Translations under genes and position numbers: made by a program | The notes under the pieces: generated by a model | The model's input: only the letters and a program-made list of their open reading frames with translations | Told to the model about the DNA's origin: nothing | Database searches by the model: none | NCBI RefSeq assembly: GCF_014202975.1 | Contig: NZ_JACHHZ010000002.1 | Span: 558,001-622,000 of the forward strand | Direction of reading: 5' to 3' | Length of the DNA: 64,000 nt | From: Povalibacter uvarum | GTDB lineage: Bacteria; Pseudomonadota; Gammaproteobacteria; Steroidobacterales; Steroidobacteraceae | In this document: one piece after another, positions 7,645 through 61,375 of the stretch | Layout of the letters: each line of letters begins with the position of its first letter | Numbering within the stretch: position 1 is the stretch's first letter

Positions 7645-8490
7645 GTGTCCTGGTCGCCCTCCACATCCCTGCTCCCGCACGCAGTCGCGCTCGCGACCAC
7701 AGTGCTATTGAGCAGTTGCGGTGGCGGAGGTGGCGACGCTGCACCTGCGAGTCCGGCAACTGTCACTCCGCCGCTCCGTGCGGTCGAGCAGTCTGACCTT
7801 CAGATCGCGCAGTTGCTTTACACAGGAACGCCGCGAACACCTGTCGGTTTCGAGGAAGACGCACCGGGCGCGGGTCATGTCTCCACTGCTCACCTGAAGA
7901 ACACCGATATCGATGCGTCGCTCGTCGCGTCGCAGCCGCAGTACGAGTTGTGTACTGATGACTGGAACGAAGCGCTCGCCTGGTCCGAGGCTCACGCGCA
8001 AAGCGCGTCGCAGTACGCGGACCTCGTGGTCACTGAAGACACATCGAAATACTTCGAGTTTGGGCGTTCGCGCGCCGGCGAGCCCGATCTCACCTTGCGG
8101 GAACGCGTCTTCAAGTGCACGTACGTGAACCGCACCAACGCTAACCTGCGCGTTGCGGAAGGCTCGGCCGGTCAACTCAATCATCGCCCGCTCACCGCGA
8201 ATGAGCTGCAGTCTCTGGGTGAGTATCTGTGGCAGTTCACGAGCTACAACAACTTCGGTCATGCGGTGCTCAAGAGCAGCACCTCGAACGCCACGACATC
8301 GCTCTCACACACGCTCATCATTGCGAGCCTGGTTCGCGACGGATATTCCACCAACTGCGATCGCGTTGACGTAGTCGCCTGGCGCCATTCAGCGAGTACC
8401 GCTACCGGCGAGTTGCTGCTCGATCTCGAAACGCTATGGAGCTTCGGCGCTCGCGAGACTGCGGGCACAGCGACGCTCTGCAATCAGTAG
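7645..8490 (+). CDS. Lipoprotein of unknown function
   Basis: A 281-aa protein with an N-terminal hydrophobic stretch and lipobox LLSSCGGGGG, so it is expected to be a lipid-anchored envelope protein. Start is GTG 7645, preceded by AAGGAGA at a good distance. The polyglycine after the lipid cysteine is a common outer-membrane linker. The mature part holds several cysteines (ELCTDDW, VFKCTYVN, TNCDRVD, TLCNQ) that could form disulfides, and a helical central region. I do not recognise a functional domain. It stands alone between a repeat cluster and the isochorismatase-like gene. Confidence 0.7.
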   Translation: MSWSPSTSLLPHAVALATTVLLSSCGGGGGDAAPASPATVTPPLRAVEQSDLQIAQLLYTGTPRTPVGFEEDAPGAGHVSTAHLKNTDIDASLVASQPQYELCTDDWNEALAWSEAHAQSASQYADLVVTEDTSKYFEFGRSRAGEPDLTLRERVFKCTYVNRTNANLRVAEGSAGQLNHRPLTANELQSLGEYLWQFTSYNNFGHAVLKSSTSNATTSLSHTLIIASLVRDGYSTNCDRVDVVAWRHSASTATGELLLDLETLWSFGARETAGTATLCNQ

Positions 8491-11594: not shown

Positions 11595-14500
11595 CTATTC
11601 GCTGCGACCCGATCGCAAGGCATCCAGCGACAGATCCTTGAAGGTGTCCTGATCCGCTTTCATGCGGAACTTGATGTACGGGCCCTGCGCCGTGTATCTG
11701 CTCGCTTCGAAGTCATCGTCGCGGAACCCGTCGAAATTGTAGCCAACCGAGATCCACACGTTGCGTGCGATCACGATGCCCACATCGACGCCCATCGACA
11801 CGTCGCTGACACCCGAGTCCATCGAGTTGAGCAGCGTCCCGTGGAAGCCAACATCCAGCCGGTCAGTCAGATCGCGCCGTGCGTCGATGCCATAAAGTCC
11901 CGACAGCCCGTCGTATCGCTCATCATCGAACGTGCTGCGCACGTATCTCGCGCCGAGCTGCAGGCCGAGTTGCGTCCGCGCATCGATCTGCCAGTTCGAA
12001 TTCAGATTATTGATCACGCGTGCCGATTCGAACTCACCCAGCAGATCGCTGCGCGAGTCATGCTTGAGGTCGAGACGATCGAGAACGATCCAGGCGCTCG
12101 TCGCGGGGCGATACGCCCAGGCGAGCTGAACTTCGCCGGCCAGCATGTCCATGCCCGTCGCGAAGCTGCTGTCGAACATGTTGGCCGACAGCGCGAACGC
12201 ATGGCCCGCGAGCGGCTCGCGATAGAAGCCACTCGACAGGACACGGCGATCCTCTTCGTCGGACCGCCGATTCTCGATCCGCGAGGTGAACGTCCAGAAC
12301 TCGCTGCGATACATGGCGCCGACGAACGTCGTGGTGAAGTCGTTCGCGAGCGTCCCTGATGCCATCGGCACGTTGACGTTGAACGGCTCCAACCCGGCGC
12401 CGCGAATCGTCTGGCTCTGGTCGATACCGAAGTCGAAGTCCCAGCGCTCATTCAGCTTCCAGCCTTGCATGATGCCGAAGTTGGCGAACACGCGCGGACC
12501 GTACTCTGTCGCCTGCTGGCTCATGCTCGACTGAATCTGTGCGCGCTGCCAGGGCCGTGTGCGCACACCGACACGCGTCATGTCGGATTCGAAATTCTCG
12601 CCGTTTGCGTGTTCGTACTCTGCAAAGAAAGTGGTGCTCGCGCGGAAGTGATAGTCCACTCCCACCAGCGAACGCGACGGGAAATCGACGCTGGAGTTGC
12701 TTCCGAGTGGCACATCCTGGGACGCACGGAGCGTGATCAGGTCGCGGAAGAGATCGACGCTGCCATTCACGAAGGCCTGCTGCGATTCCGTGTCGCCGTT
12801 GGTGAGCCCGGTATCGGCAACGTGCCGCGCACCGACGCCAAGTGTGTAGTCGTCCATCTCGCGGCGAACTTCGGCACTGACGAGTTCGCGCTGCGCGCCC
12901 GTTCCCAGCACTTCCTGTCGATAGGTTTCGCCTTCGAGCGCCATGTGCTCCGAAACGCGATAGCGCGCATCAGCGCCGATCTTCCGTGTCCCGTCTTCGG
13001 AGCGCATCTGTTGTCCGAGCCCGAAGCCGGCTTCCTGCTCGCGTATGTAAACACGCGCATCGACCCGCTCCGTCACATGCTCGAGCTGTGTGAGATAGGC
13101 AGTCGCCTCCGCCGTTCCGGCGGGATCGTCGGATTCGCTGCGAGCCAGTTCTGCCTTCAGCTCGGTCGCCTCGCCGATCCGCCACCGCAGATCCGTCCCA
13201 GCCAGACGCGTATCGCCGGCGGTCGCGCCTTCCTGCAGGTACGTCGTGCCGACTTCGACGCGATCACCGGCAAACTTGACGGACGCGCGCCCGCCGCCCG
13301 TGACTTGCGATTCGCCGCCGCTCAGGACTTCGTACTCCGCGATGACGTAGACCGGATTGAAGTTCGGGTCGCGGCTCGGGACAGGCTGCTTGAAGAACAG
13401 CGTGCCGTTGAGATAGTCGACGCTGTAGTCGATGTACGGCGTGAGCTCACGCGACTCGACGACCACTTCACTGCGGAAGCGATCGCGGACTTCGAGCCGG
13501 ATCTTGTCACTGTTCACGATCAACGGCCGGCGGGAGAGCCTGTACAGACCGGAGGTTCCGTCGCCCAGCAGCTCATCCCTGACGTAACCCTGCTCTGATT
13601 CGGCGGCGAAGGCCGTGTAGCCGAAGCGCTCGCCCGCATGCTCGGCCTTCAGACCGGTGAACGTACGGTTGTAGCGCGATAGCTCCGTCACGGTCATCGA
13701 CGTCGTGAAGTCGCCGAACAGAGCGGCGAACTGCCGTCGCTCGACCTTCAGAAACAGCTTCTGCGCGGTAGCGGCTTCGAAGCGCTGCTCAGTCGCATCT
13801 GCGTAGAGCGTGTAGAAGCGGTCCGGTTCTACCGTGCCGCGCAGGCGATCCTTGGACTCGTCGTGGTCGCGCTCCGAGTCATACGCCAGCGTCAACAGGT
13901 ACTCGCCCTTGATCGCTCCCTTGGCGAAGAATGCGATGCGATCCTGGTTGGCGTAGCCCTCCTCGAGCCCGGCATCGACCGCTGACTGCATGTTCTGACT
14001 GATCGTGTTGTACGCCGTCGTGCCTTCGGCGATGCCGACCAGGATCCAGTCGCGCGCACGCGGTTCGAGCCACACACGGATCTCCTGCTCCTGGCGCTCG
14101 TTCATTCGCAACCGGACGACCGCCGTTCCTGCTTGTGTCGTCGGCTCGAGCTCGAGTCTGACCAGGCCGTCCGCATCGACGTTGAAGGTCGGTTCGCGTG
14201 TGCCCACCGCGACCATCTTGTTGTCATCGCGCGATTCGACTTCCCACCACGAGCGGTAGGGCTCATCGATGCGCCAGCCGCCCAGCGTTCCAGGTCGCGC
14301 CGGCTTCCCATACGCATCGATCATTCGCAGCGCGATGACAGGCCGGGTGCGACCATCGGCGAGCAGTGTCGAAGCTTCACGGACAAGCTCCGCACGTACT
14401 GCGCCGCCGGCGTAGTGGACCGTGCGTTGGAGAGCGGCAACCTGTTCGTTCTGCTCATTCAGGACACGCGCGACCAGTCGATTGTCACCGTCCTTCAGAT

Positions 14501-17500
14501 CCACGCCGCGCCAGCGACTCAATGCGATCGTTCCTTCGCGATTCGTCGACACGCCGTCGAAGTTGAGTGAGCTGACCGCAGCGCCGTTCACGGACAGCTC
14601 GACGCGCTGCGCCGGTGCGTGGCGAATGGCGATCTGCAAGCTCGGGATCGCAGGAATTTCACCCTCGACCGGCCAGACCCAGTCCGTTCCCGACGGCAAC
14701 TGCTCGACGTCTATGTCACCGCGCTTCACTTCGACGGTCGCCTTCGGTTCGGCGGGCACCGTCACTCCTTCGATGACGCCAACCGTCGCGACCGGTGCCG
14801 ATGCGGCACTTGCAGTACGCACCGAGAGTCCACCCGCCGCAACCACGCGCAGGCCCTCGATCGCGATCTCGACACGCCGATTGAGTGCGAGGCTCTGCGC
14901 GTCGTGACCAGCCGCCAGAGGCTCGTCCGAGCCACGACCCTCGACGGCAACGCGCGAAGGATCGATACCGAGACGCGATGTGAGGTAGTCCGCTACCGCC
15001 CTGGCCCGTGCGAGCGAAAGGGCATGATTGTCCGGATAGTCGACACGGCTTCGGGCCGCGATCAGCATGGAATCCGTATGGCCGATGGTCGTCAGCCGGA
15101 GGTGACTCACTCCGCGCCATTCCCCGACGATGCGATCGAGCTGGTCGCGATCGCTGGCCAGAATCTGCGTATCCAGCACATCGAACCGCGGCGAGAAGCG
15201 GTATGAAGCCGACTCGTAGAGCATGTCGCCGCGCAACGCAATGTTCTCCACCGCCGCCGTCATCTGGCCTGCCTGCGATGGCGAATCGAAGCGCGCGAGC
15301 GCCTTCACCGTGAGTGCACCGCTCGTCGCGGCATTGGCTGTCGTGTCGAACACCAGAACGGACTGGGCGATGATCGGCGACGGCAAAGTGAATGTGAGCA
15401 CACCGTCGGTGACCGACGGATCGGCCGCCGGCGCGCCATTCACCTGGGCACTGCCAGGGAGGAAAGCGAGTCCCGAGGGCATCAGGATCATCGCGCGCGA
15501 ATTGGAGATTTCAGGACCTGTCGCCTGCAGTGCCGCCGTGTGCCTCAGCGTCGCGGGATCGATCACCGACGTCTGGAACCGCAGGATGACTTCGCCCTTA
15601 GCCGGTTGCTTGCGCTGAAGCAGGAAGTCGCTGCGCCACAAGGCTCCGCCGCGCACATCGACGAACTGCGAGTACGCCGAGCCCGCCTGTCGAACGTTGC
15701 CGCTGCAGACCTGCGTGAGATGCGTTGACGGCACCGTCACCGTATCGAGCTGAACTACGTGCGAGCCCGGCGCGACGTCTTCGAAGTGATACTTGCCATC
15801 CGCGTCCGTCACGGAGTAGCGACCGTCTTCGAGATAGACACGGACGCCCGCGACGCCGGGTTGCTGATGAATCGACGCGCCGCACGAGCCCTCGACGACG
15901 CGACCCATCAGGATCGCCCGTTCACGGAAGAGTTCTTCGCGAAGCTGGATCGTTGCCTGCGCATCGTTCGACGAGATGCCGTCGGGGCCGCTCGCGCGCG
16001 CCGTGTTCACGAACTGCTTGCCGTTCGCGCCGACTGTGACCTCTACGACGTAGCGAATCTCGACGCGCTGACCCGCACCGAGACGGCCGTGGCTGAACGT
16101 CAGCGTGCGGCCATCCGGTGAGATCAGCGGATCAGCACCCACAGCGTCGCCGATGCGAGTGGAGCCTGTCCGATAGCGAGCGCCGGCAGGCAGGCGGTCG
16201 ACAATGGTGACGCTGCCGATCGCTGCGTTGCTAGACGTGTTCTCGGCAACGAGCGTGTACTGGACGAAGTCACCCACGGCCGCGACTGTTGTCGTCGTGC
16301 TCTTGCGCATGAAGAGCTGAGTGGCAGCGGGATCGACAGGGACATCGATGGCTACCGTGGGACCCGCGTTCACGGTGAAGACGCGGCCGAACGAGCCATC
16401 CTGCAATCGATACGGCCCACCGGGCGTCCCGGCAAGGTCGGCAATGCTGAGTGCACTCGGGAAGGCATGGCCGGCAGGCGCATCGACTTCGATTCGATAG
16501 GTGCCAGGCGCAATCAACGGAAAGCGGAACGTTCCCGCGGGCATCGTGTACAGGGTGCCGCCGGCATCGGTCACGGCCTCGCCCGTCACCATCTCGGCGG
16601 GGTAGCGGCTGACTCCATCATCGCCATACACCGTCGCAAGCGTACCGCTCGATGCATCGACGAGTCGCACACGAGCACCGTCGATCGCTGCACCGGTGCT
16701 GGAGTCGAACACGAGACCGTAAGGATCGACCAGCGCGCTCGCGTTGCTCGTGTCTCGGGCATCGACAGGATCGACATAGATGGAGCGAATGGAGGTGTTG
16801 CGTGCGACTTCCAGAGAGCAATTGCCCGCAGTGGCCGTGCCCGTGCGAGTCTGAATGTAGCCGGCGAAGACGCCGGTGTTCGCGCCCGTTTCGGATAAGC
16901 GCAGGATTTCGGCGTCGCCGCCCGGGGTCGACACGCGCAGCTCCGCGATATCGACTGCGACAGCATCGCGATTCTGATCCGCGTCGGCGAGCTGCAGGAA
17001 GGCGGCTTCACCGCCGTGAAGCGACGACGTGCCGATCAACGCGATCGGTTGCGAAAGATCGATAGGATCGCCGGAAGAAGATTCCGGCGGTGCGAGCAAC
17101 TGCATGCCGCTCGAAGACTGACATTGCGTTGCATAAACCTGGGTGGCCGTGCCCGATCCCATCGTTCCGGCGCGAAGAATAGACAGAGCGGAGACGGACG
17201 CAGCTGGCGTGATGACGGCGCTCACCGCATTGCTCGCGATGGACGAGCGGTTCGCGGCATCGCCGTAGGTCACGGTGGCAATGTTCTGGATCGTAGTGCC
17301 GGCGGGTGTCTGGGCGAGGGCCTGCGGCAGCCAAAAGAGAAACGCAGCCGCGATCAGCGGCTCCAGCCAGAAGGAATCGAAATTCCTCGTCCGCTGTGGG
17401 TCCGGCTTCAGCCGGACGTTATCGCCGCAGGCGATGCTTCGCTGACGTCCGACTGAAGTCGGACCCACAGGAGAAGTCCCCGCAAACGCGCCGAGGGCGG

Positions 17501-17561
17501 GACGGCTATTCACCGTCCCGCCCGCGTCGTGTGTCGGAGCTTCGTATGACGAACTGCGCAT
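11595..17561 (-). CDS. Giant DUF11/OmpA-like/beta-barrel outer-membrane protein
   Basis: A protein of up to 1988 aa. Order: hydrophobic export segment about residues 67-83 (IAAAFLFWLPQALAQ); AGTTIQNIATVTY module 87-120; a SETGANTGVF region near 223; a DUF11 domain about 415-530; an SdrD_B/CNA_B-like fold 545-605 (VRVYLEDGRYSVTDADGKYHF); an OmpA-like peptidoglycan-binding domain about 785-900 (TTIGHTDS to LNRRVEIAIEG); further Ig-like segments to about 1190; then roughly 800 residues of alternating strands resembling a large outer-membrane barrel (IRLEVRDRFRSEVVVESREL, LNGTLFFKQPVPSRDP, ending PYIKFRMKAD plus a 19-residue tail). It is last in a leftward series with three DUF11 genes. The start is uncertain: ATG 17561, GTG 17513 and GTG 17468 are in frame, but a dispersed repeat covers 17395-17470. 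Function is inferred: surface assembly or anchoring. Confidence 0.8.
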   Translation of the reverse strand: MRSSSYEAPTHDAGGTVNSRPALGAFAGTSPVGPTSVGRQRSIACGDNVRLKPDPQRTRNFDSFWLEPLIAAAFLFWLPQALAQTPAGTTIQNIATVTYGDAANRSSIASNAVSAVITPAASVSALSILRAGTMGSGTATQVYATQCQSSSGMQLLAPPESSSGDPIDLSQPIALIGTSSLHGGEAAFLQLADADQNRDAVAVDIAELRVSTPGGDAEILRLSETGANTGVFAGYIQTRTGTATAGNCSLEVARNTSIRSIYVDPVDARDTSNASALVDPYGLVFDSSTGAAIDGARVRLVDASSGTLATVYGDDGVSRYPAEMVTGEAVTDAGGTLYTMPAGTFRFPLIAPGTYRIEVDAPAGHAFPSALSIADLAGTPGGPYRLQDGSFGRVFTVNAGPTVAIDVPVDPAATQLFMRKSTTTTVAAVGDFVQYTLVAENTSSNAAIGSVTIVDRLPAGARYRTGSTRIGDAVGADPLISPDGRTLTFSHGRLGAGQRVEIRYVVEVTVGANGKQFVNTARASGPDGISSNDAQATIQLREELFRERAILMGRVVEGSCGASIHQQPGVAGVRVYLEDGRYSVTDADGKYHFEDVAPGSHVVQLDTVTVPSTHLTQVCSGNVRQAGSAYSQFVDVRGGALWRSDFLLQRKQPAKGEVILRFQTSVIDPATLRHTAALQATGPEISNSRAMILMPSGLAFLPGSAQVNGAPAADPSVTDGVLTFTLPSPIIAQSVLVFDTTANAATSGALTVKALARFDSPSQAGQMTAAVENIALRGDMLYESASYRFSPRFDVLDTQILASDRDQLDRIVGEWRGVSHLRLTTIGHTDSMLIAARSRVDYPDNHALSLARARAVADYLTSRLGIDPSRVAVEGRGSDEPLAAGHDAQSLALNRRVEIAIEGLRVVAAGGLSVRTASAASAPVATVGVIEGVTVPAEPKATVEVKRGDIDVEQLPSGTDWVWPVEGEIPAIPSLQIAIRHAPAQRVELSVNGAAVSSLNFDGVSTNREGTIALSRWRGVDLKDGDNRLVARVLNEQNEQVAALQRTVHYAGGAVRAELVREASTLLADGRTRPVIALRMIDAYGKPARPGTLGGWRIDEPYRSWWEVESRDDNKMVAVGTREPTFNVDADGLVRLELEPTTQAGTAVVRLRMNERQEQEIRVWLEPRARDWILVGIAEGTTAYNTISQNMQSAVDAGLEEGYANQDRIAFFAKGAIKGEYLLTLAYDSERDHDESKDRLRGTVEPDRFYTLYADATEQRFEAATAQKLFLKVERRQFAALFGDFTTSMTVTELSRYNRTFTGLKAEHAGERFGYTAFAAESEQGYVRDELLGDGTSGLYRLSRRPLIVNSDKIRLEVRDRFRSEVVVESRELTPYIDYSVDYLNGTLFFKQPVPSRDPNFNPVYVIAEYEVLSGGESQVTGGGRASVKFAGDRVEVGTTYLQEGATAGDTRLAGTDLRWRIGEATELKAELARSESDDPAGTAEATAYLTQLEHVTERVDARVYIREQEAGFGLGQQMRSEDGTRKIGADARYRVSEHMALEGETYRQEVLGTGAQRELVSAEVRREMDDYTLGVGARHVADTGLTNGDTESQQAFVNGSVDLFRDLITLRASQDVPLGSNSSVDFPSRSLVGVDYHFRASTTFFAEYEHANGENFESDMTRVGVRTRPWQRAQIQSSMSQQATEYGPRVFANFGIMQGWKLNERWDFDFGIDQSQTIRGAGLEPFNVNVPMASGTLANDFTTTFVGAMYRSEFWTFTSRIENRRSDEEDRRVLSSGFYREPLAGHAFALSANMFDSSFATGMDMLAGEVQLAWAYRPATSAWIVLDRLDLKHDSRSDLLGEFESARVINNLNSNWQIDARTQLGLQLGARYVRSTFDDERYDGLSGLYGIDARRDLTDRLDVGFHGTLLNSMDSGVSDVSMGVDVGIVIARNVWISVGYNFDGFRDDDFEASRYTAQGPYIKFRMKADQDTFKDLSLDALRSGRSE
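17395..17470. repeat. GTCCGGC palindrome pair inside the 5' part of the barrel gene frame
   Basis: Two outward copies of the TGTGGGTCCGGCT-type palindrome flank an ATCGCC...GGCGAT centre, as in the copy at 23369-23446. Here the repeat lies inside the open frame of the giant protein, encoding residues around 31-56, just before the hydrophobic export segment. Elsewhere in the window this repeat is intergenic. Confidence 0.8.
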
Positions 17562-17623
17562 CAGCTCACGTTCCGGAGCTCGCTGCGCAGTGACGAAGGT
17601 TACGCATGTCGGCGCCAGCGTCC

Positions 17624-18664
17624 TTACTGCACCGTGACGCGGAACCGAACATTCGCGCTGCCGGCCGGCGCTACGCTCGGAATCGTCACAGCGATGCTGC
17701 TGACAGGCGTTCCCGTTGCCGATGCGTTGTCGCCATCACTCGACGAATCCGTCACGCCGGAGCCGTTGCGAAGCATCGAGCCTGCGACATATGCCGTATT
17801 CGCCGGGATCGAATCCGTCACCGCCACATCCGTCGCAGCCACGGTGCCGCCGTTGTTGACGGTGATCGTGTACTCGACGACCGCGCCCGGAATCGCTTTC
17901 GGATTCGTCGTGTTGTTGAACGGATCGGAGATGACGCTCACCGTCTTCGTGACGGTCAGCGACGCCGACTCGACCGTGTACTGGCTGTCGGCGAGTTCGG
18001 AAGCATCGCGACCCGCATCAGCGAACACGATGTCGACACCGGCTGTGTCAGCACCGCTCGTTTCCGTCAGCAGCGTGGCGCCGGCGCTACCAGCGGCAGC
18101 GGCCTGCACCTGCAATCGCACGCTCGCGAACTGGCCATTCGTCGCGCTGAGCGGGACCGTCGCGAGGACGAATACACGGACCGGCGTCGGCGAAGCGGCT
18201 GGCGCGATATCGCCGAGATTGCCGATGACGTCGGTTCCCGCCTCGTACGTGCCGTTGCCGTTGGCATCGACAGCTGTCGACAGCGTGAGTCCGTTCAGCG
18301 TGTCGTTGTTGCCGAAGACAGCGGTGGCGATGTCAGTCGCCGTGAGCCGGTAGCTCTGAATCGCGTTACCGGTGTTCGTGACTGTGAACGTGGTCACCAC
18401 CGCGGTCTGACCGGGATTCGCGATCACGGCTGCCGTGTTCGTCGTCGTCACCGTCAGGTCGACGCGGTTATCGACGACGAACGCGACAGGCGCACTCGTG
18501 ATCGCCGTCTGCGCCACGCCACCCACACTGTAGTTCACCGTCGCCGTGTTGCTGATCGACGTACCCGCGGTTGTTCCGACGGCATACGCGCTCTGCAGCA
18601 CGCCCAGCGATGACAGCATCAACAGTGCGAGGCTGGCCTGTTTCAGGTGCCTGGCAATCGTCAT
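17624..18664 (-). CDS. Exported DUF11-domain protein A
   Basis: A 346-aa secreted protein. ATG 18664 is preceded by GAGGAG at seven bases and gives the signal peptide MTIARHLKQASLALLML; the 27 codons upstream are rejected. After cleavage comes the module VGTTAGTSISNTATVNYS, closely like that of the giant barrel protein, then a DUF11-like domain with VTTFTVTNTGNAIQSYRL. A second DUF11 domain opens with DPFNNTTNPKAIPGAVVEYT and runs to the very last residues (VRFRVTVQ). It lies 62 bases upstream of the barrel gene and 99 bases after protein B. A role as a secreted or surface Ig-like protein is inferred. Confidence 0.85.
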   Translation of the reverse strand: MTIARHLKQASLALLMLSSLGVLQSAYAVGTTAGTSISNTATVNYSVGGVAQTAITSAPVAFVVDNRVDLTVTTTNTAAVIANPGQTAVVTTFTVTNTGNAIQSYRLTATDIATAVFGNNDTLNGLTLSTAVDANGNGTYEAGTDVIGNLGDIAPAASPTPVRVFVLATVPLSATNGQFASVRLQVQAAAAGSAGATLLTETSGADTAGVDIVFADAGRDASELADSQYTVESASLTVTKTVSVISDPFNNTTNPKAIPGAVVEYTITVNNGGTVAATDVAVTDSIPANTAYVAGSMLRNGSGVTDSSSDGDNASATGTPVSSIAVTIPSVAPAGSANVRFRVTVQ

Positions 18665-18763
18665 TGGAGATCTCCTCGTTGATGAAATACACACGATCGG
18701 CAAGTGGAAACCCGTGCGCGCACTGCATCCCTGCCCGATATGCACTGCGCGATTTCGAATCGA

Positions 18764-19279
18764 TCAGTCGACGCGCGCGCGATAGCGAACGAAGGCCGTC
18801 GAGCCCGGCGCGAATGACGCGGCGTAGCTCCAGCGAACCGCGCGGTACTCGTCAGGCTTCGCGGGTTGCACCGCGCCGTCGTGAGTCGACGTGAGCGCAG
18901 CGGCAGCCTTGAATTCCTTGCCGTCGACCGAGTAAGTGATATCGGTGCCCGTTCCCATCGCCGAGCTGGCGACATAGGTCATGTGCTCAGGCACGGGGTT
19001 CGCGATAACGACGTGCTCAACCGCTTTCGCGCACGTGTTCTTCGCCGTGATGGTCCAGACGACTTCACTGCCCGGCACCGGCTTGTCGAGCGGTACGAGA
19101 CGCGTCGCCTTCTTCCCCTGCTCGTTGACGTACTGCTGCTCGCTCTCCGCGGTCGTCGTGAGCTCGATGCAGTTCTGCGCCCTGGCCGACGCCGACAGAC
19201 ACAACCCCAGCGTGACGGCCGCCATCAGTCCCTTCTGGCTCACGGCTCGCCGTTCGTCGCTCGTAGCTCTGCTCTTCAT
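18764..19279 (-). CDS. Exported single-domain DUF11 protein B
   Basis: A 171-aa protein. A TTG at 19297 is in frame, but ATG 19279, preceded by GAGGAGAAACGAG, is the better start. The N-terminus has a basic stretch and then GLMAAVTLGLCLSASARAQ, a Sec signal. The mature chain is one DUF11 fold: PGSEVVWTITAKNTC, VVIANPVPEHMTYVASS, a SVDGKEF insert and the final strand FVRYRARVD at the C-terminus. Two cysteines (QNCIEL and NTCAKA) may pair. It begins 14 bases after the stop of protein C, so they are almost certainly co-transcribed. Confidence 0.82.
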   Translation of the reverse strand: MKSRATSDERRAVSQKGLMAAVTLGLCLSASARAQNCIELTTTAESEQQYVNEQGKKATRLVPLDKPVPGSEVVWTITAKNTCAKAVEHVVIANPVPEHMTYVASSAMGTGTDITYSVDGKEFKAAAALTSTHDGAVQPAKPDEYRAVRWSYAASFAPGSTAFVRYRARVD

Positions 19280-19293
19280 CTCGTTTCTCCTCT

Positions 19294-20283
19294 TCAATTG
19301 ATCGTCACGGCGAACCGAATCGTCTGCGGCCCAGACGCCTGGGTGAGATCGCCGAGGTGGATGCGCACCTGTGAATCCGGTGCCGAAACGAACTCACCGA
19401 CATCGCCGTCCGCGATGTCGCTGAGCACGGTACTGTTGAGTGCGAGCGTTCCCGGCACGTACGTCGTGTACGCGGGAATGGTGTCGCTGAAGATTGCGTC
19501 TGGCGCGGTGCCGCTGCCGTTCACGCTGACGACGATCTGGTAGTCGATGCGCGCCCCCGCTACTGGGCGCGAGCCTCCTGCCGGATCGACGATGGTCTGC
19601 GTCTTGACGGCGGCGACCTGCATTCTCGCGGCAACGTATTCGCCGAACACGATGCCTTGTGCCCCGCTCGTACCGACGAGTGCATCGACGCCGCCATCTC
19701 CTTGCGTCGCGAACAGCGATCCTGGTGTTCCCGTACCGGTACGCGCACGTGCAGTGAGCTGGCTTCGGCCGCGCGCTGTGTTCGCGACGTTTGCGGGAAT
19801 GTCGTTGATCACCAGCACGCGAACGGCGGTATCAGGCGCGAGTGCCGGGTCATTGCTGCCGGCGACGTAGAGCGTGTCGGGAGGCGACAGGTCGTTGCTC
19901 GCATCGGTATCGAAGTAGATGTCGACGAGCGTCGGATCGAAGTCGTCGCCCACGATGCCGGCGCTCATCGCACCGAGATCGAACGTCTCCGTGCCGTTGC
20001 CGGTGTTCGTGATCGTGAAGACCAGTCCCCGGCGGGTCTCCCCGGCGGACACCGGAGTCGTCCCGCTGACTGTCACGACGACATCGAGAATCTCAGCGAC
20101 GATCACCGTGACCGTGTTGGATGTCGCGGTCAGCGTCGGACCGCCAAACGTGTAGGTGGCCTGCGCTGTGCCCTGGATGCTGGTGCCGGCGTTGGTGCCA
20201 GCTGCGCGCACGGCAGCCGGAGCGGCGATGAACACCGCAACGAGCAGCCCAGCGAACAACCACGACCATCGCGAATGAACCAC
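19294..20283 (-). CDS. Exported DUF11-domain protein C
   Basis: A 329-aa secreted protein, first gene of the leftward series. GTG 20283 is chosen because GGGGAGGAT lies five bases upstream and it yields a clean signal peptide (WSWLFAGLLVAVFIAAPAAV ending in RA). The frame extends 34 codons further up, but those are highly basic and lack a ribosome site. The mature protein begins AGTNAGTSIQGTAQATYTFG, the shared module. It has a first DUF11-like domain (LVFTITNTGNGTETFDLG), a middle region, and a second domain opening at AGARIDYQIVVSVNG and ending IRFAVTIN. Probably the lead member of one operon with B, A and the barrel protein. Confidence 0.83.
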   Translation of the reverse strand: MVHSRWSWLFAGLLVAVFIAAPAAVRAAGTNAGTSIQGTAQATYTFGGPTLTATSNTVTVIVAEILDVVVTVSGTTPVSAGETRRGLVFTITNTGNGTETFDLGAMSAGIVGDDFDPTLVDIYFDTDASNDLSPPDTLYVAGSNDPALAPDTAVRVLVINDIPANVANTARGRSQLTARARTGTGTPGSLFATQGDGGVDALVGTSGAQGIVFGEYVAARMQVAAVKTQTIVDPAGGSRPVAGARIDYQIVVSVNGSGTAPDAIFSDTIPAYTTYVPGTLALNSTVLSDIADGDVGEFVSAPDSQVRIHLGDLTQASGPQTIRFAVTIN

Positions 20284-20779
20284 CAGAATCCTCCCCACTA
20301 GCCGGATCGGCCGGAGGCGACGATTCGATGGCTTCTTCCGTTCGCGTATGCGTCGGCTGCTACCCCTTGTGAATCGCCCCGGCAATCCCTGATGGCGCCG
20401 GATTCTGGTTAAGGGAATGACTGCCTTTGTGAGTGGGGTCGCACTTTGTCCGGCCCAGGCTCAAGTTTTGGAACGAACTGCCGAGCCCATCGCGCTTTAG
20501 GGCACGTTTCGAATGCGCTTACGCTCATCGCTCGAGCGGTTCTGAGAACTGGTTCGCGCTGCATTGTGTGTCGCATGCACGCCGATGCGCGTGATGCGCG
20601 CACACGAGACATAACATCGACGGTCTTCCGTCGCTTTCGCCATAACGGGCCGATTGGCGACGTGCATCGCGGACTCGGACGACGATCGACATAAGCGCGT
20701 CAATTTGTGAACGGTTCGGGGTGCGCCTGAGGGAAACGCTCAATAGGCTCCGCGCAATCCGGAATCTGCAGGATCATTC
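20284..20779. promoter_or_regulatory. Divergent intergenic region between the two DUF11 transcription units
   Basis: About 500 bases separate the leftward DUF11 series from the rightward beta-helix gene, so promoters for both probably lie here. I see no convincing gene; short frames on both strands lack ribosome sites and family features. Small inverted motifs such as GCATGC and GATGCGCGTGATGCGC occur near 20570-20600, and AGGA at 20770 serves the right-hand gene. No riboswitch consensus was recognised. Confidence 0.45.
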
Positions 20780-23338
20780 GTGCGCTCACCGTTCGCATCG
20801 CTTCTGATCTGTGTCCATTGCGCTGCCCTCGCCCTGCTGGGCTCGGCTGCGCATGCGGCAACGATCAGCGGGCGCGTGTTCGAGGACGTGAGTTATGGCG
20901 GCGGTGCCGGGCGTTCGCTCGCGGACGCCAGCGGTGTCGGCATCAACGGCGTTCGCGTCGAGCTGTACATACAGAGCGGCGCGAACTTCAACTACTCCAC
21001 CGCGGCGACGACAGCGACGATCGCTGCGAATCCCGGCAGCTATTCGTTCACGGGCCTTTCGGCGGGCACTTATCGCGTTCGTGTCGTGAACGGCACGATC
21101 GATTCCTCGCGCGGTGGTTGCACCGCGAACTGCGTACCGGTGCAGACGTATCGTACCGACGCCAGCACGGGTACGGCGGCACCGGTGACGAATCGCGTCG
21201 GCGGTGAGAATCCTCTTCTTAGCGACGCACCGAACCGGACATCCGGCAATCTCGGCGCGCAGACCTCTGGTACGCAGACACCCCAATCCCTCGCGCCGGT
21301 CGCGCTGAGCTCCAGCTCCGCCGCGCTCGTCGTCGGCAATGTCGACTTCGGTTTCAACTTCAGCACGATCGTCAACACGAACGATCTGGCGAACTGCACA
21401 CCTTCGGGGTCGTCGAGTTCCTTCTTCCCCTGCCAGGGAACGCTGCGCCAGTTTCTGATCAACTCCGATGTGCTCGGTGCGCTGGCTTCCCAGGCTGGCT
21501 CGGGGCAACTCGGCGGTGGCGCGACTTCATTGCCCGGGGGCAGCGAGTCGAGCATCTTCATGATTCCGTCGAGTCAGCTGACGAGCGGTGTCGCTGTCAT
21601 CGCTCTCGCGGCGGCCCTGCCTGTCATCGATCGATCGAATGTTCGTCTGGATGCGACGACGCAGACAGTCAACATCGGCAACACCAACTCTGGCGTGTCC
21701 GGCACCGGCGGTATGGTCGGTGCGCTGAGCACGGCTTTTCCGCAGTTCGTTCGTCCGGAAGTGCAGATCGCTGACGCCACCTTCACACTGACGGGCAGCA
21801 ACCAGGCGGTTCATGGCTTCGCGTTGCCGCGAGGCTCGATCGCCGTGTCCGGCGCGAACGCCATCGTTCGCGACAACTTCGTCGGTGTCGCGGCGAATGG
21901 CACAACGGACTCCGGCGACGCCATGGCGATCGTCTTCACCGGTGCGAATGCACAGATTCGCAGCAACTACGCAGCAGCCAACAATTCCGTGATCCGGGGC
22001 AACAGTCCCGGCGCGGGCTCGACTGTCAGTTTCAACGAAGTCATCCGCTCGTCTGTCACGCCCGGCAACACCTTCGACGGCATTCTTCTGATCGGCACCG
22101 CGACCGGCGTTCGCATCGAGAACAATCTCGCCCGCAACCAACCCGGTGCCGGCATCGAACTCGGCTTCGAAGGCGGCACGATGAGCAGCATCGTGATCAC
22201 CAACAACACGGTTCGTCAGAACGGCTTCTCCGGATCGGGAGCTACACCGACGACGACACCGAGCGCGGAGCCCATCGGCATCGCGGCCTGGAACTACGTC
22301 GGCAGCAACGTAGAAATCTCACTGAACGTCATCGAAGAGAACGCGGGTCCCGGACTTCTGCTGAGCGACGTATCGAACACGCGCATTACGCGCAATCGCT
22401 TCGGCAACAATCGCGGCCTCGCGATCGATCTCAACGCGAACGACGCCGATCCGAACAGCGTCGGCAGCGGCCCGGGGCCGACGCTCAACGACACGAACGA
22501 CTCCGACAGCGGCGCGAACGACCTGCTGAACTTCCCCGTAATCACCGCGGCGACGATCGCCAACGGCGAGTTCTCGCTCGCCGGCTTCGCTCAGCCCGGG
22601 GCAGCGATCGAGCTGTACGTCGCACAGCCCGACCCGACCGGCTTCGGCGAGGGACTCACCCATATAGGCACGTTCACCGAAGGCGTCGGCGATCTCGACA
22701 ACGGCACCGGCAGCTATTCAGGGGCGATCAACGGCGTGAACCAGGGAGGCGATACCACGAACCGGTTTCTCTTCCGCGGTTCAGTTCCGGCAGGTATGAC
22801 GGGCGGCCTCGTGCTGACGAGCACGGCGACACTGAGCGGGCGAACATCGGAGTTCGGCGGCAATGTCACAGTGACGACCGGCCCCAATCTCGTGACGCTG
22901 AAGACCGTGCAGGTCGATGCCGACCCGATCAACAACACAACCAATCCCAAGAGCATTCCAGGTGCGACCCAGCGCTACACGATCCGGCTGACCAACCAGG
23001 GCCCGGGAACCGTCGACAACAACACGGTGGAGATCGTCGACGCGATTCCGACGAATACGCTGTTCTGCAATCTCGCCGCGCCCGTCACGTTCACCAATGG
23101 CTCGCCCGTGAGCGGCCTGTCGTTCACATTCGCGACTCTCGGCAGCACGACGGACGACGTGGATTTCTCCAGCACCACGAGCGGCAATCCGGTCTGGAAC
23201 TACACACCGGTCGCAAATGCCAACGGCTGCGACGCTGCGGTTCGCTACGTCAGAATCCGCCCCCGGGGCACGATGGCGGGCAGCAGCGGTTCGGGAAATC
23301 CTTACTTTGAAGTGCAGTTCAGGGTGAGGGTGCAGTGA
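20780..23338 (+). CDS. Exported beta-helix/DUF11 surface protein
   Basis: An 852-aa secreted protein starting at GTG 20780 with AGGA six bases before it. Signal: FASLLICVHCAALALLGSAA. Residues about 28-110 form an SdrD_B-like fold (ISGRVFEDVSYGGG, GSYSFTGLSAGTYRVRVVNG). About 330-560 is a right-handed parallel beta-helix (repeats such as RDNFVGV, IRSNYAAANN, VRIENNLARNQ, ISLNVIEENAG, ITRNRFGNNRG). The C-terminal DUF11-type domain opens with DPINNTTNPKSIPGATQRYT and ends with the strand EVQFRVRVQ. The NNTTNPK stretch is almost the same as in protein A of the divergent operon, so the units are related. Likely a surface or secreted adhesin or matrix protein. Confidence 0.83.
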   Translation: MRSPFASLLICVHCAALALLGSAAHAATISGRVFEDVSYGGGAGRSLADASGVGINGVRVELYIQSGANFNYSTAATTATIAANPGSYSFTGLSAGTYRVRVVNGTIDSSRGGCTANCVPVQTYRTDASTGTAAPVTNRVGGENPLLSDAPNRTSGNLGAQTSGTQTPQSLAPVALSSSSAALVVGNVDFGFNFSTIVNTNDLANCTPSGSSSSFFPCQGTLRQFLINSDVLGALASQAGSGQLGGGATSLPGGSESSIFMIPSSQLTSGVAVIALAAALPVIDRSNVRLDATTQTVNIGNTNSGVSGTGGMVGALSTAFPQFVRPEVQIADATFTLTGSNQAVHGFALPRGSIAVSGANAIVRDNFVGVAANGTTDSGDAMAIVFTGANAQIRSNYAAANNSVIRGNSPGAGSTVSFNEVIRSSVTPGNTFDGILLIGTATGVRIENNLARNQPGAGIELGFEGGTMSSIVITNNTVRQNGFSGSGATPTTTPSAEPIGIAAWNYVGSNVEISLNVIEENAGPGLLLSDVSNTRITRNRFGNNRGLAIDLNANDADPNSVGSGPGPTLNDTNDSDSGANDLLNFPVITAATIANGEFSLAGFAQPGAAIELYVAQPDPTGFGEGLTHIGTFTEGVGDLDNGTGSYSGAINGVNQGGDTTNRFLFRGSVPAGMTGGLVLTSTATLSGRTSEFGGNVTVTTGPNLVTLKTVQVDADPINNTTNPKSIPGATQRYTIRLTNQGPGTVDNNTVEIVDAIPTNTLFCNLAAPVTFTNGSPVSGLSFTFATLGSTTDDVDFSSTTSGNPVWNYTPVANANGCDAAVRYVRIRPRGTMAGSSGSGNPYFEVQFRVRVQ

Positions 23339-59942: not shown

Positions 59943-61145
59943 TTAGTTGACCGTCTTGCTTGCAACGTTCGAGAGCGAGCTCTCGGCACCGCCCGACGTC
60001 AACGACTTCACTGCGAAGTAGTACGTCGCCGGCGACAGGTTCTCGATCACGTACGTCGACACGCTCGGGTTGTTGACCTGCACGGTCTGGTTCAACGAGT
60101 TCGAGCTCGTGCCGTAGTAGATACGGTAGCCGCTCAGATTGGTGAGCGACGAGCCGTCCGTGTTACGGGTCGGCGGCGTCCACGAGAGCGACGCAGTGCC
60201 GTTCGCCGTTGCGGTCACACTGATCGAGAAGGCCGACAGCGAAGCGGATGCTTTGCCATCGCTCACCTTGATCACGATGTTCGAGTACGTTCCGACCTGA
60301 GCGGCCGTCGGCGTGCCCGAGAGGCGACCGGTCGAAGCGCTGAACGTGGCCCACGACGGCTTGTTCGTGATGGTGAAGGTCAGCGAGTCGCCGTTGGCGT
60401 CGCTCGCGCTCGGCGTGAACGAATAGGCGCTGCCTGCCTTGATCGACGTCGTCGGCGTGCCGCTGATGCGCGGTGCCGTGTTAGACGAACCGGAGGACTT
60501 CACCTGGATCGTGAATGCCGGCAGCGATGCCGTCACCTTGCCGTCGCTCACCTTGATGACGATGTTCGAATACGTGCCCACGTGGCTGCTCGTCGGCGAA
60601 CCCGACAGCTGGCCGGTGGACGTGCTGAAAGTCGCCCACGACGGACGGTTCGTGATCGTGAAGCCGAGCGAGTTGCCGTCCGGATCGGAAGCGGTCGGCC
60701 GGAAGCTGTAGGAACTGCCCACCGTCACCGACGTCGCCGGAGAACCTGAGATCGTCGGCGCACGATTCGAGCCGGACGACGACTTCACGGCGATCGAGAA
60801 GCGCGGCAGCGCTTTGGCATTCACGCCGTCCCACGCATAGATCTCGATGCTGGAGGAAGTACCCGCGCTCCTCGGCGTGCCGCTCAGCTTGCCGGTCGTG
60901 CGACTGAAAGTCGCCCACGACGGCTGGTTGCGGATACCGAAGCTCACGTACTTGCCTTCCGGATCGCGAGCCGAAGGCGTGAACGAATAAGCCTGACCGA
61001 CGGTTGCTGTCGTCGACGGCGTGCCCGAGATCACGGGAGGTTTGTTGATTGCGGCATTGGCCAGGGGCATGAAGCCAGCGGCAGCGATGAACGCAAGAAG
61101 GAACCGTTGCACGCTGCCCGGTACGGTGCGCTGTGCGATAGACAT
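59943..61145 (-). CDS. Exported putative-Ig (He_PIG) repeat protein with fibronectin-III domain
   Basis: A 400-aa secreted protein with signal VQRFLLAFIAAAGFMPLANA. Three tandem He_PIG-type domains follow (each about 90 residues, with APTISGSPATSVTVGSSYSF-type starts and PSWATFSTSTGQLSGSPT-type ends), joined by serine-rich KSSGS linkers. The second and third are very alike. A C-terminal FN3 domain (ASLSWTPPTRNTDGSSLTNL, YYFAVKSLTSGGAESSL) ends at VASKTVN. No anchor is visible. Its long leader contains a c-di-GMP riboswitch, which points to a biofilm matrix or adhesion role; that role is inference. Confidence 0.88.
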   Translation of the reverse strand: MSIAQRTVPGSVQRFLLAFIAAAGFMPLANAAINKPPVISGTPSTTATVGQAYSFTPSARDPEGKYVSFGIRNQPSWATFSRTTGKLSGTPRSAGTSSSIEIYAWDGVNAKALPRFSIAVKSSSGSNRAPTISGSPATSVTVGSSYSFRPTASDPDGNSLGFTITNRPSWATFSTSTGQLSGSPTSSHVGTYSNIVIKVSDGKVTASLPAFTIQVKSSGSSNTAPRISGTPTTSIKAGSAYSFTPSASDANGDSLTFTITNKPSWATFSASTGRLSGTPTAAQVGTYSNIVIKVSDGKASASLSAFSISVTATANGTASLSWTPPTRNTDGSSLTNLSGYRIYYGTSSNSLNQTVQVNNPSVSTYVIENLSPATYYFAVKSLTSGGAESSLSNVASKTVN

Positions 61146-61282: not shown

Positions 61283-61375
61283 GGTGTTTCGGTAGCCCCG
61301 CCATCCTGCGCAACACTGCGCTGGACCGGTGGCTTTGCGTCCCCATCTCACGACGGGTTTGCCCTTTTCAAAACA
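61283..61375 (-). ncRNA. Cyclic-di-GMP-I (GEMM-I) riboswitch
   Basis: On the minus strand the conserved GEMM-I blocks appear in order: AAGGGCAAACC, GGGGACGCAAAGCCACCGG, then a GCGCAGTGTTGCGC stem and GATGGCGGGGCTACCG. Pairing segment P1 is visible as GTGTTTTG (5' end, 61375-61368) with CGAAACAC (3' end, 61290-61283). This aptamer binds cyclic di-GMP. It lies about 140 bases upstream of the Ig-repeat gene, in the same direction. Confidence 0.92.

Follow-up and report, generated by a model that had tools for sequence, protein, structure and literature searches.

The window, a stretch of 64,000 nucleotides from Povalibacter uvarum, encodes at 11595-23338 five proteins, which we call D, C, B, G and H. 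D, C, B and G lie head to tail in this order on the minus strand, and H is read in the opposite direction. The positions and sizes given for the five genes in a preliminary description were confirmed from the open reading frames and their coordinates. The features are the following, where donor and acceptor denote putative roles and an asterisk marks the stop.

11595-17561, minus strand: giant protein G, open reading frame of 1988 aa; from N- to C-terminus a donor hairpin, a conserved N domain, a complete DUF11, SdrD_B-like, OmpA-like and Ig-like parts and a large barrel.
11661-13934, minus strand: predicted outer-membrane barrel of G, ~36 strands (residues ~1210-1967).
14886-15185, minus strand: OmpA-like peptidoglycan-binding domain of G (residues 793-892; PF00691, E 6.4e-12).
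15939-16322, minus strand: complete internal DUF11 of G (residues 414-541), with the intact triad Lys420-Asp455-Asn519.
17205-17309, minus strand: donor hairpin of G (residues 85-119, Asn93 in I-x-N-x-A), immediately behind the signal peptide.
17624-18664, minus strand: B, 346 aa; donor hairpin (Asn39), middle domain and C-terminal truncated DUF11 with acceptor residues Lys240 and Asp284; C-terminus FRVTVQ*.
18455-18574, minus strand: donor hairpin of B.
18764-19279, minus strand: C, 171 aa; one truncated DUF11 with Lys and Asp substituted, without donor hairpin.
19294-20283, minus strand: D, 329 aa; donor hairpin, middle domain and truncated DUF11 with acceptor residues Lys227 and Asp267; C-terminus FAVTIN*.
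20071-20190, minus strand: donor hairpin of D, with Gly38 in place of Asn in Povalibacter uvarum.
20284-20779, no strand: divergent intergenic region between D and H.
20780-23338, plus strand: H, 852 aa; SdrD_B-like part, beta-helix and truncated C-terminal DUF11 with acceptor residues Lys708 and Asp754; C-terminus FRVRVQ*; no donor hairpin seen.

Pfam and NCBIfam confirmed in the main the DUF11, OmpA, SdrD_B and beta-helix parts that had been proposed for these proteins. DUF11 scored above the Pfam cut-off in G, B and C and was weak in the other two. D reached E 0.01 in Pfam, below the cut-off, and was above the cut-off with TIGR01451. H matched Beta_helix and SdrD_B in Pfam, while its DUF11 stayed below the cut-off both in Pfam and with TIGR01451 (E 0.005). 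Further Pfam matches in G were to SdrD_B/CarboxypepD_reg. The signal peptides, read by eye, have AxA-like ends. Note that the 1988-aa frame leaves about 60 residues ahead of the G signal peptide and that the true start of G is uncertain. The stretch at 17468-17561 (minus strand), upstream of the signal peptide (GGTVNSRPALG), has a counterpart in two other loci (L036 and L038) and is either an extended signal region or a misplaced start. No match to the sigma-70 consensus was found in 17450-20900. A 281-aa protein is encoded at 7645-8490 (plus strand), separated from G by other genes; its relatives lie directly past the 3' end of G, in convergent orientation, in L037, L039, L040, L042 and L043.

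D-C-B-G is a conserved operon, present in several phyla, and its arrangement is not due to chance. In a first set, 17 loci other than the window's own were searched, 13 of which had a G covering both ends. C-B-G was found in all 13, its order and orientation being kept down to ~43% G identity, and D lay ahead of C in 12 of the 13; L039 gave no D match. Two short contigs (L021 and L023) held part of G only, with no D, C or B, and these three genes were likewise not found in L049, which is cut at the contig start, or in L050, a distant relative, where G itself was distant or partial. A scan of GTDB species genomes yielded 281 stretches encoding relatives, and the best 80 of the 281 were kept as a second set. 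Gene order was counted in the 62 of these loci in which 2.7 kb or more of sequence precedes the G frame. C and then B lay upstream of G in 61 of the 62, and an additional D-, B- or H-type gene stood directly ahead of C in 55. The exception, L094, has masked sequence within G, and no relatives were found upstream of it; in L128 a D-type gene is inserted between B and G. D, C, B and G, for which the preliminary description had suggested a survey of gene order, do not occur independently of one another (13/13 and 61/62 loci), and its view of the small DUF11 proteins as partners of the giant is supported.

The owners of the operon include Steroidobacter, Woeseiaceae, Nitrospirota, Geobacter, Geomonas silvestris, Desulfobacterales, Ghiorsea and Moraxellaceae. 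By eye, D, C, B, G and an H-like gene were recognized on a plasmid of the alphaproteobacterial Novosphingobium sp. THN1, with the B and G frames broken, and D-like, C-like and H-like genes with a G split in two genes on a plasmid of the cyanobacterial [Synechococcus] NIES-970. Among sampled genomes, those with G numbered 81 of 396 in the order (E 1e-150) and 35 of 299 in the phylum (E 1e-50; an uneven sample).

The C-terminal DUF11 domains of the small proteins and of H are mostly truncated in the same way. In these the chain stops right at the end of one beta-strand, with the pattern '..F.V.I[ND]*'. The stop lay right behind this strand pattern in 52/54 D, 63/66 C, 59/76 B and 9/10 H proteins, where only H on the operon strand, upstream of G, was counted. 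The exceptions among B were mostly a few residues longer; B of L090 and L109 and C of L086, L107 and L113 were misfits altogether. The complete DUF11 inside G continues into a hairpin, N.A.A.....SN, and in G, B and D the signal peptide is directly followed by I-x-N-x-A....SN. The latter element corresponds to a module that had been described as shared, behind the signal peptide, by two small proteins and the giant. We confirmed it for D, B and G, all of which have AGT(S/T)I..(T/A) at this place in the window. The module, AGT(S/T)I..N.A, does not look like a sorting tag. Judged by sequence, it has the motif of the two final DUF11 strands, which D, C, B and H lack in their C-terminal DUF11.

Several counts bear on this identification. 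A loose pattern of the module was found in the first set in 14/14 G, 14/14 B, 13/13 D, 0/13 C and 1/7 H, and at the N-terminus in the second set in 59/76 G, 54/63 B, 43/51 D, 1/64 C and 4/23 H; the matches in C and H look unrelated by eye. The motif N.A...SN occurred in 46/54 donors of G, 38/49 of D and 20/64 of B and in 54/54 complete DUF11 tails, and in 24/10208 and 81/5850 background windows of the same proteins. When a PSSM was built from complete DUF11 tails, 37/54 G donors, 39/49 D donors and only 15/64 B donors exceeded the 99th percentile of windows from real proteins, and only 15 G, 8 D and 5 B donors exceeded that of shuffled donors. The 40-residue hairpin alone gave no significant HMM or hhalign match to DUF11 and no DUF11 match in Pfam or NCBIfam. 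The reading of the hairpin as a DUF11 end draws on the motif count and the triad columns described below, not on profile searches. The acceptor domain of B matches AbpX (E 6.5e-4), and ABPx is listed among donor-strand exchanged fibres (excerpt of PMC11952670); AbpX and ABPx are presumably the same protein.

Other DUF11-matching proteins of the same genome, four in number, served as a thin control outside the operon. Those of 710 aa and 1186 aa have a complete DUF11 at the end plus another tail, and one of 1358 aa ends otherwise. A second DUF11 locus of this genome (L051, 3843-16728) holds a 1358-aa DUF11 protein and a 1855-aa barrel paralogue of G, with ExbB/ExbD-like and TPR genes as neighbours (named by eye). 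This locus, whose termini break the donor/acceptor rule, and Eleftheria, which breaks it as well, were set apart. The fourth protein, an orphan paralogue of C (L052, 5988-6515), is truncated too, ends ARFRAVFR* and overlaps the beginning of a helicase-like frame; a search of its 14-kb stretch gave no G relative.

DUF11 has been renamed CLIPPER, an isopeptide domain with a Lys-Asp-Asn triad, which is Lys715-Asp748-Asn806 in crystal structure 9IFR (excerpt of PMC12617251). The profile of the internal DUF11 of G aligned with residues 8-108 of the 123 in the 9ifr chain, a stretch that begins ahead of the Lys and ends beyond the Asn, with an E value of 8.4e-7. The Lys and Asn columns of this alignment match the reported spacing of 91, and the Asp column deviates by one residue from the reported 33 (excerpt of PMC12617251). 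The triad of the internal DUF11 of G is intact, with Lys in 54/55, Asp in 54/55 and Asn in 55/55 rows. Triad residues of the truncated domains and of the donors were counted in the window plus L058-L137 without L132, with identical rows removed and score and length filters applied. At the acceptor positions of the C-terminal domains, Lys was found in 61/64 rows of B (3 gaps), 52/52 of D and 22/23 of H, and Asp in 63/64, 52/52 and 22/23 rows, respectively. Asn was found in the donor hairpin of G in 54/55 rows, of B in 62/62 and of D in 44/50; the 6 D donors without Asn include that of the window, which has Gly. Downstream of the Asp within their own chain, B and H had no column with at least 60% Asn. 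D has one conserved Asn past its Asp (58/64 rows), at another position than the triad Asn, so an intramolecular bond may form in D. At the Asp column C has Asn in 52/64 rows and Asp in 10/64, and Lys is present in 14/64.

On these sequence columns the CLIPPER triad is split. B, D and H retain Lys and Asp in their C-terminal DUF11, and Asn lies in the hairpins of G and B and in most of those of D. In C both Lys and Asp are largely gone. A Lys-Asp-Asn triad on one chain was found in the internal copy of G only, and not in B, H, D or C. Because the module resembles the missing DUF11 end, the small proteins look like donor-hairpin chain subunits with a split triad.

We next consider G. AlphaFold2 on residues 1050-1988 (55 rows) predicted a barrel of about 36 long strands (pLDDT 79, pTM 0.74), in agreement with the barrel-like part proposed earlier. 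Of the two outcomes that would have refuted the preliminary description, a prediction without a barrel and independent occurrence of the genes, neither was seen. Pfam matched nothing in the C-terminal 800 residues up to E 0.1. The top barrel matches in Foldseek were very large or TonB-type barrels, along with some lipoprotein B entries, with low TM scores (at most 0.27 among the matches listed). The best match was SlpA (8ae1; E 7.8e-8, TM 0.25). As to membership in established families, SprA of the type IX translocon was unmatched in fold (6h3i, TM 0.24), and the G barrel had no Pfam match. The 12-strand C-terminal domain of autotransporters was not found in G, for which ~36 strands are predicted. 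The usher family (PF00577) had no match in G at E 0.1 in Pfam. From the OmpA family, PF00691 is present as one domain of G, and among the NCBIfam matches listed (25 of 34) none reached an OmpA-type equivalog cut-off. Of the two roles that the preliminary description had offered for the giant, outer-membrane base or exporter, that of a barrel-bearing base is likely, and export through the barrel would be a further, conjectural step.

Two variants of G were seen. Short G proteins with open frames of 1677-1763 aa, in G026, G528, G556, G606, G671, G680, G512 and G526, match alignment positions 1-571 and ~866-1904 only, so that by coordinates the OmpA region is missing. In the cyanobacterium (L056, 7941-14098), where the giant is split, one gene encodes a 509-aa protein with the donor hairpin and the other a 1543-aa protein matching the barrel part of G.

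The divergent H is one of several partners with differing heads. A domain scan of 7 H proteins found a legume lectin in L137 (PF18483, E 2.7e-41), SpaA_4 in L130, DUF7933 arrays in L088, L093 and L135, and only DUF11-type domains in L131 and L056. This variety of heads, together with the beta-helix in the window, would look like what is expected of tip adhesins, and H is a candidate tip protein. Of 25 loci scanned, 4 (L111, L135 with two, L104 and L088) have c-di-GMP-I riboswitches shortly before the operon, at a distance of 59-199 bases from a plausible start of its first gene. None was found at the operon in 21 of the 25 loci, the window included, some loci being cut inside the operon. Elsewhere in the window, a c-di-GMP-I-GGC riboswitch (61287-61372, minus strand, 70 bits) has downstream of it a gene for a 400-aa exported protein (59943-61145, minus strand) with Ig/cadherin-like and FN3-like domains (by eye).

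A chain of C, B and residues 1-460 of G from L126, read through the stops, was modelled with alignment A4 (27 in-frame rows); alignment A3, in which 88 of the 92 rows were unfused C, B or G, was misaligned and was dropped. The model had a pLDDT of 83 and a pTM of 0.48. The hairpins were ordered (pLDDT per blocks of ten 81-95 in B and 72-90 in G), and most of the linker sequence was below 50. Foldseek matched the model to Ig-sandwich arrays of other proteins, among the 50 matches listed. Distance correlations link the G donor with the acceptor of C (0.64) or D (0.60), not B (-0.24). Pairing of G with B was not favoured by a partial Mantel test of partner identity over 44 loci, a test confounded by phylogeny.

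We think it reasonably probable that the locus specifies a donor-hairpin fibre, probably self-ligated in trans by isopeptide bonds, that is anchored to and threaded through the G barrel of ~36 strands. The surface assembly system of the preliminary description stands insofar as there is one conserved surface system; its small proteins look like chain subunits and not merely exported cargo. In the proposed mechanism, D, B and H (and C) would be exported carrying at the C-terminus a DUF11 Ig domain that ends before the last two strands. The N-terminal hairpins of mature G, B and D would each enter a partner's C-terminal domain, and the subunits would thereby be chained head to tail. The acceptor Lys and Asp plus the Asn of the inserted hairpin would reform the CLIPPER triad, so that joints with an Asn-bearing donor could close an isopeptide bond without an enzyme. 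H, which is acceptor-only, would sit at the distal end as a tip whose head varies.

G would be the base, with its N-terminal hairpin as the last donor, its OmpA domain holding peptidoglycan and its C-terminal barrel as the route of the fibre across the outer membrane. Since the OmpA domain, the donor hairpin and the internal DUF11 all lie ahead of the barrel, the base would most simply be periplasmic and the fibre would pass through the barrel, usher-like; alternatively, the N-terminus of G may be translocated. C, as an acceptor without Lys and Asp, may bind free donors reversibly, as a cap or chaperone, and the loss of the two residues fits reversible binding. No chaperone was found among the five proteins. 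We count against the mechanism that the donor/acceptor tally leaves C without explanation.

More tentatively, and at somewhat less than even chances, the system may be a natural split-isopeptide pilus in which each joint with an Asn-bearing donor is a CLIPPER domain that two chains have in common, these joints self-ligate in an order such as G-B-D-H, G is at once usher-like barrel (~36 strands), peptidoglycan anchor and covalent terminator, and C is a reversible donor cap. This would be a widespread pathway of Gram-negatives and cyanobacteria, with c-di-GMP riboswitches in some lineages.

The main alternative keeps the fibre and makes its joints non-covalent only, with Lys, Asp and Asn retained for folding or hydrogen bonding. 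We regard this as unlikely. Lys and Asp are among the columns of at least 90% conservation in B (7 in the last 150 residues) and H (14 in the last 190); both are kept in B and H in spite of the lack of a conserved Asn further along the chain, and in G and B the Asn of the donor hardly varies. Purely non-covalent joints would nevertheless accommodate C, most rows of which are without Lys and Asp and which is yet conserved, the D donors without Asn (6/50 rows), and the DUF11 domains that appear without the bond (excerpt of PMC12617251).

A further reading is that each N-terminal hairpin folds onto the C-terminal DUF11 of its own chain; the small proteins would then each be secreted or surface-bound on their own, with the giant as their exporter. 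Auto-complementation occurs in some archaeal-thread models and in the TasA monomer (excerpt of the archaeal-thread paper), and the partial correlations dB-aB (0.22) and dD-aD (0.33) are weakly positive. G is a donor without a truncated C-terminal domain, and C and H are acceptors without a donor, so at least G, C and H need a partner; as the operon is also strictly kept, we consider self-closure improbable. It is very improbable that G is an outer-membrane stabiliser or S-layer-like porin tied to peptidoglycan and decorated by DUF11 proteins, with no conduit: its OmpA domain and best barrel match, Deinococcus SlpA, would suit such a role, but a TM of 0.25 is no fold match, one group of G proteins is without the OmpA region, and the donors and acceptors would be left without explanation.

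Among the matches listed from the PMC open-access literature, no description of the gene set or of split DUF11 domains was found. Donor-strand fibres and isopeptide domains are already known; we found no account there of an isopeptide domain that is naturally shared out over two subunits and comes with a dedicated giant barrel of an unrelated kind. If the threaded donor-hairpin fibre is real, DUF11, known as a stalk unit in single polypeptides, would also be the joint of a multi-protein fibre, and natural split isopeptide couplers would exist. A function would be assigned to a gene set whose giant occurs in about a fifth (81/396) of the sampled genomes of the order, and the fibre would be tied to c-di-GMP signalling in some Geobacter relatives. 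Exact testable residues are predicted, and new protein-ligation pairs would be on offer.

The proposed fibre would share with chaperone-usher pili the incomplete Ig-like subunits with an N-terminal donor, an acceptor-only tip candidate, in one case lectin-bearing, and an outer-membrane barrel adjoining the subunit genes. The sequence supports the view that a neighbour's donor may complete such a subunit. In contrast to these pili, no usher or PapD-type chaperone match was found among the five proteins here, the donor is a two-strand hairpin, the base donor is fused to the barrel, and the isopeptide triad is divided over the putative joint. SpyTag/SpyCatcher is an engineered split CnaB2 whose halves ligate on meeting. 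It is likewise a split isopeptide domain, of which the present system is the proposed natural counterpart; unlike the engineered pair, this one would be natural, CnaA-like and part of an assembly line. SprA, LptD and SlpA resemble G in being very large beta-barrels with weak Foldseek matches to the G barrel, but TM is at most 0.27 among the matches listed and no Pfam family was found in the G barrel.

Archaeal threads (Saci_0406), TasA and ABP/AbpX fibres also consist of exported subunits joined through donor strands, and the acceptor domain of B resembles AbpX. An intermolecular isopeptide bond is present in archaeal threads as well (excerpts of PMC9715654 and PMC11607397). In contrast to the joint proposed here, the thread bond runs from the N-terminal Asp24 to Asn57 two subunits away and involves no split Lys-Asp-Asn domain, and the thread, TasA and ABP fibres are without an outer-membrane base. 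DUF11/CLIPPER fibrillar adhesins and the GhlA grappling hooks, GhlA being a chain of 49 DUF11 domains (excerpt of PMC13319060), are built from the same domain family. Their domains lie within one polypeptide, whereas at the present locus the domain would be cut and shared between polypeptides.
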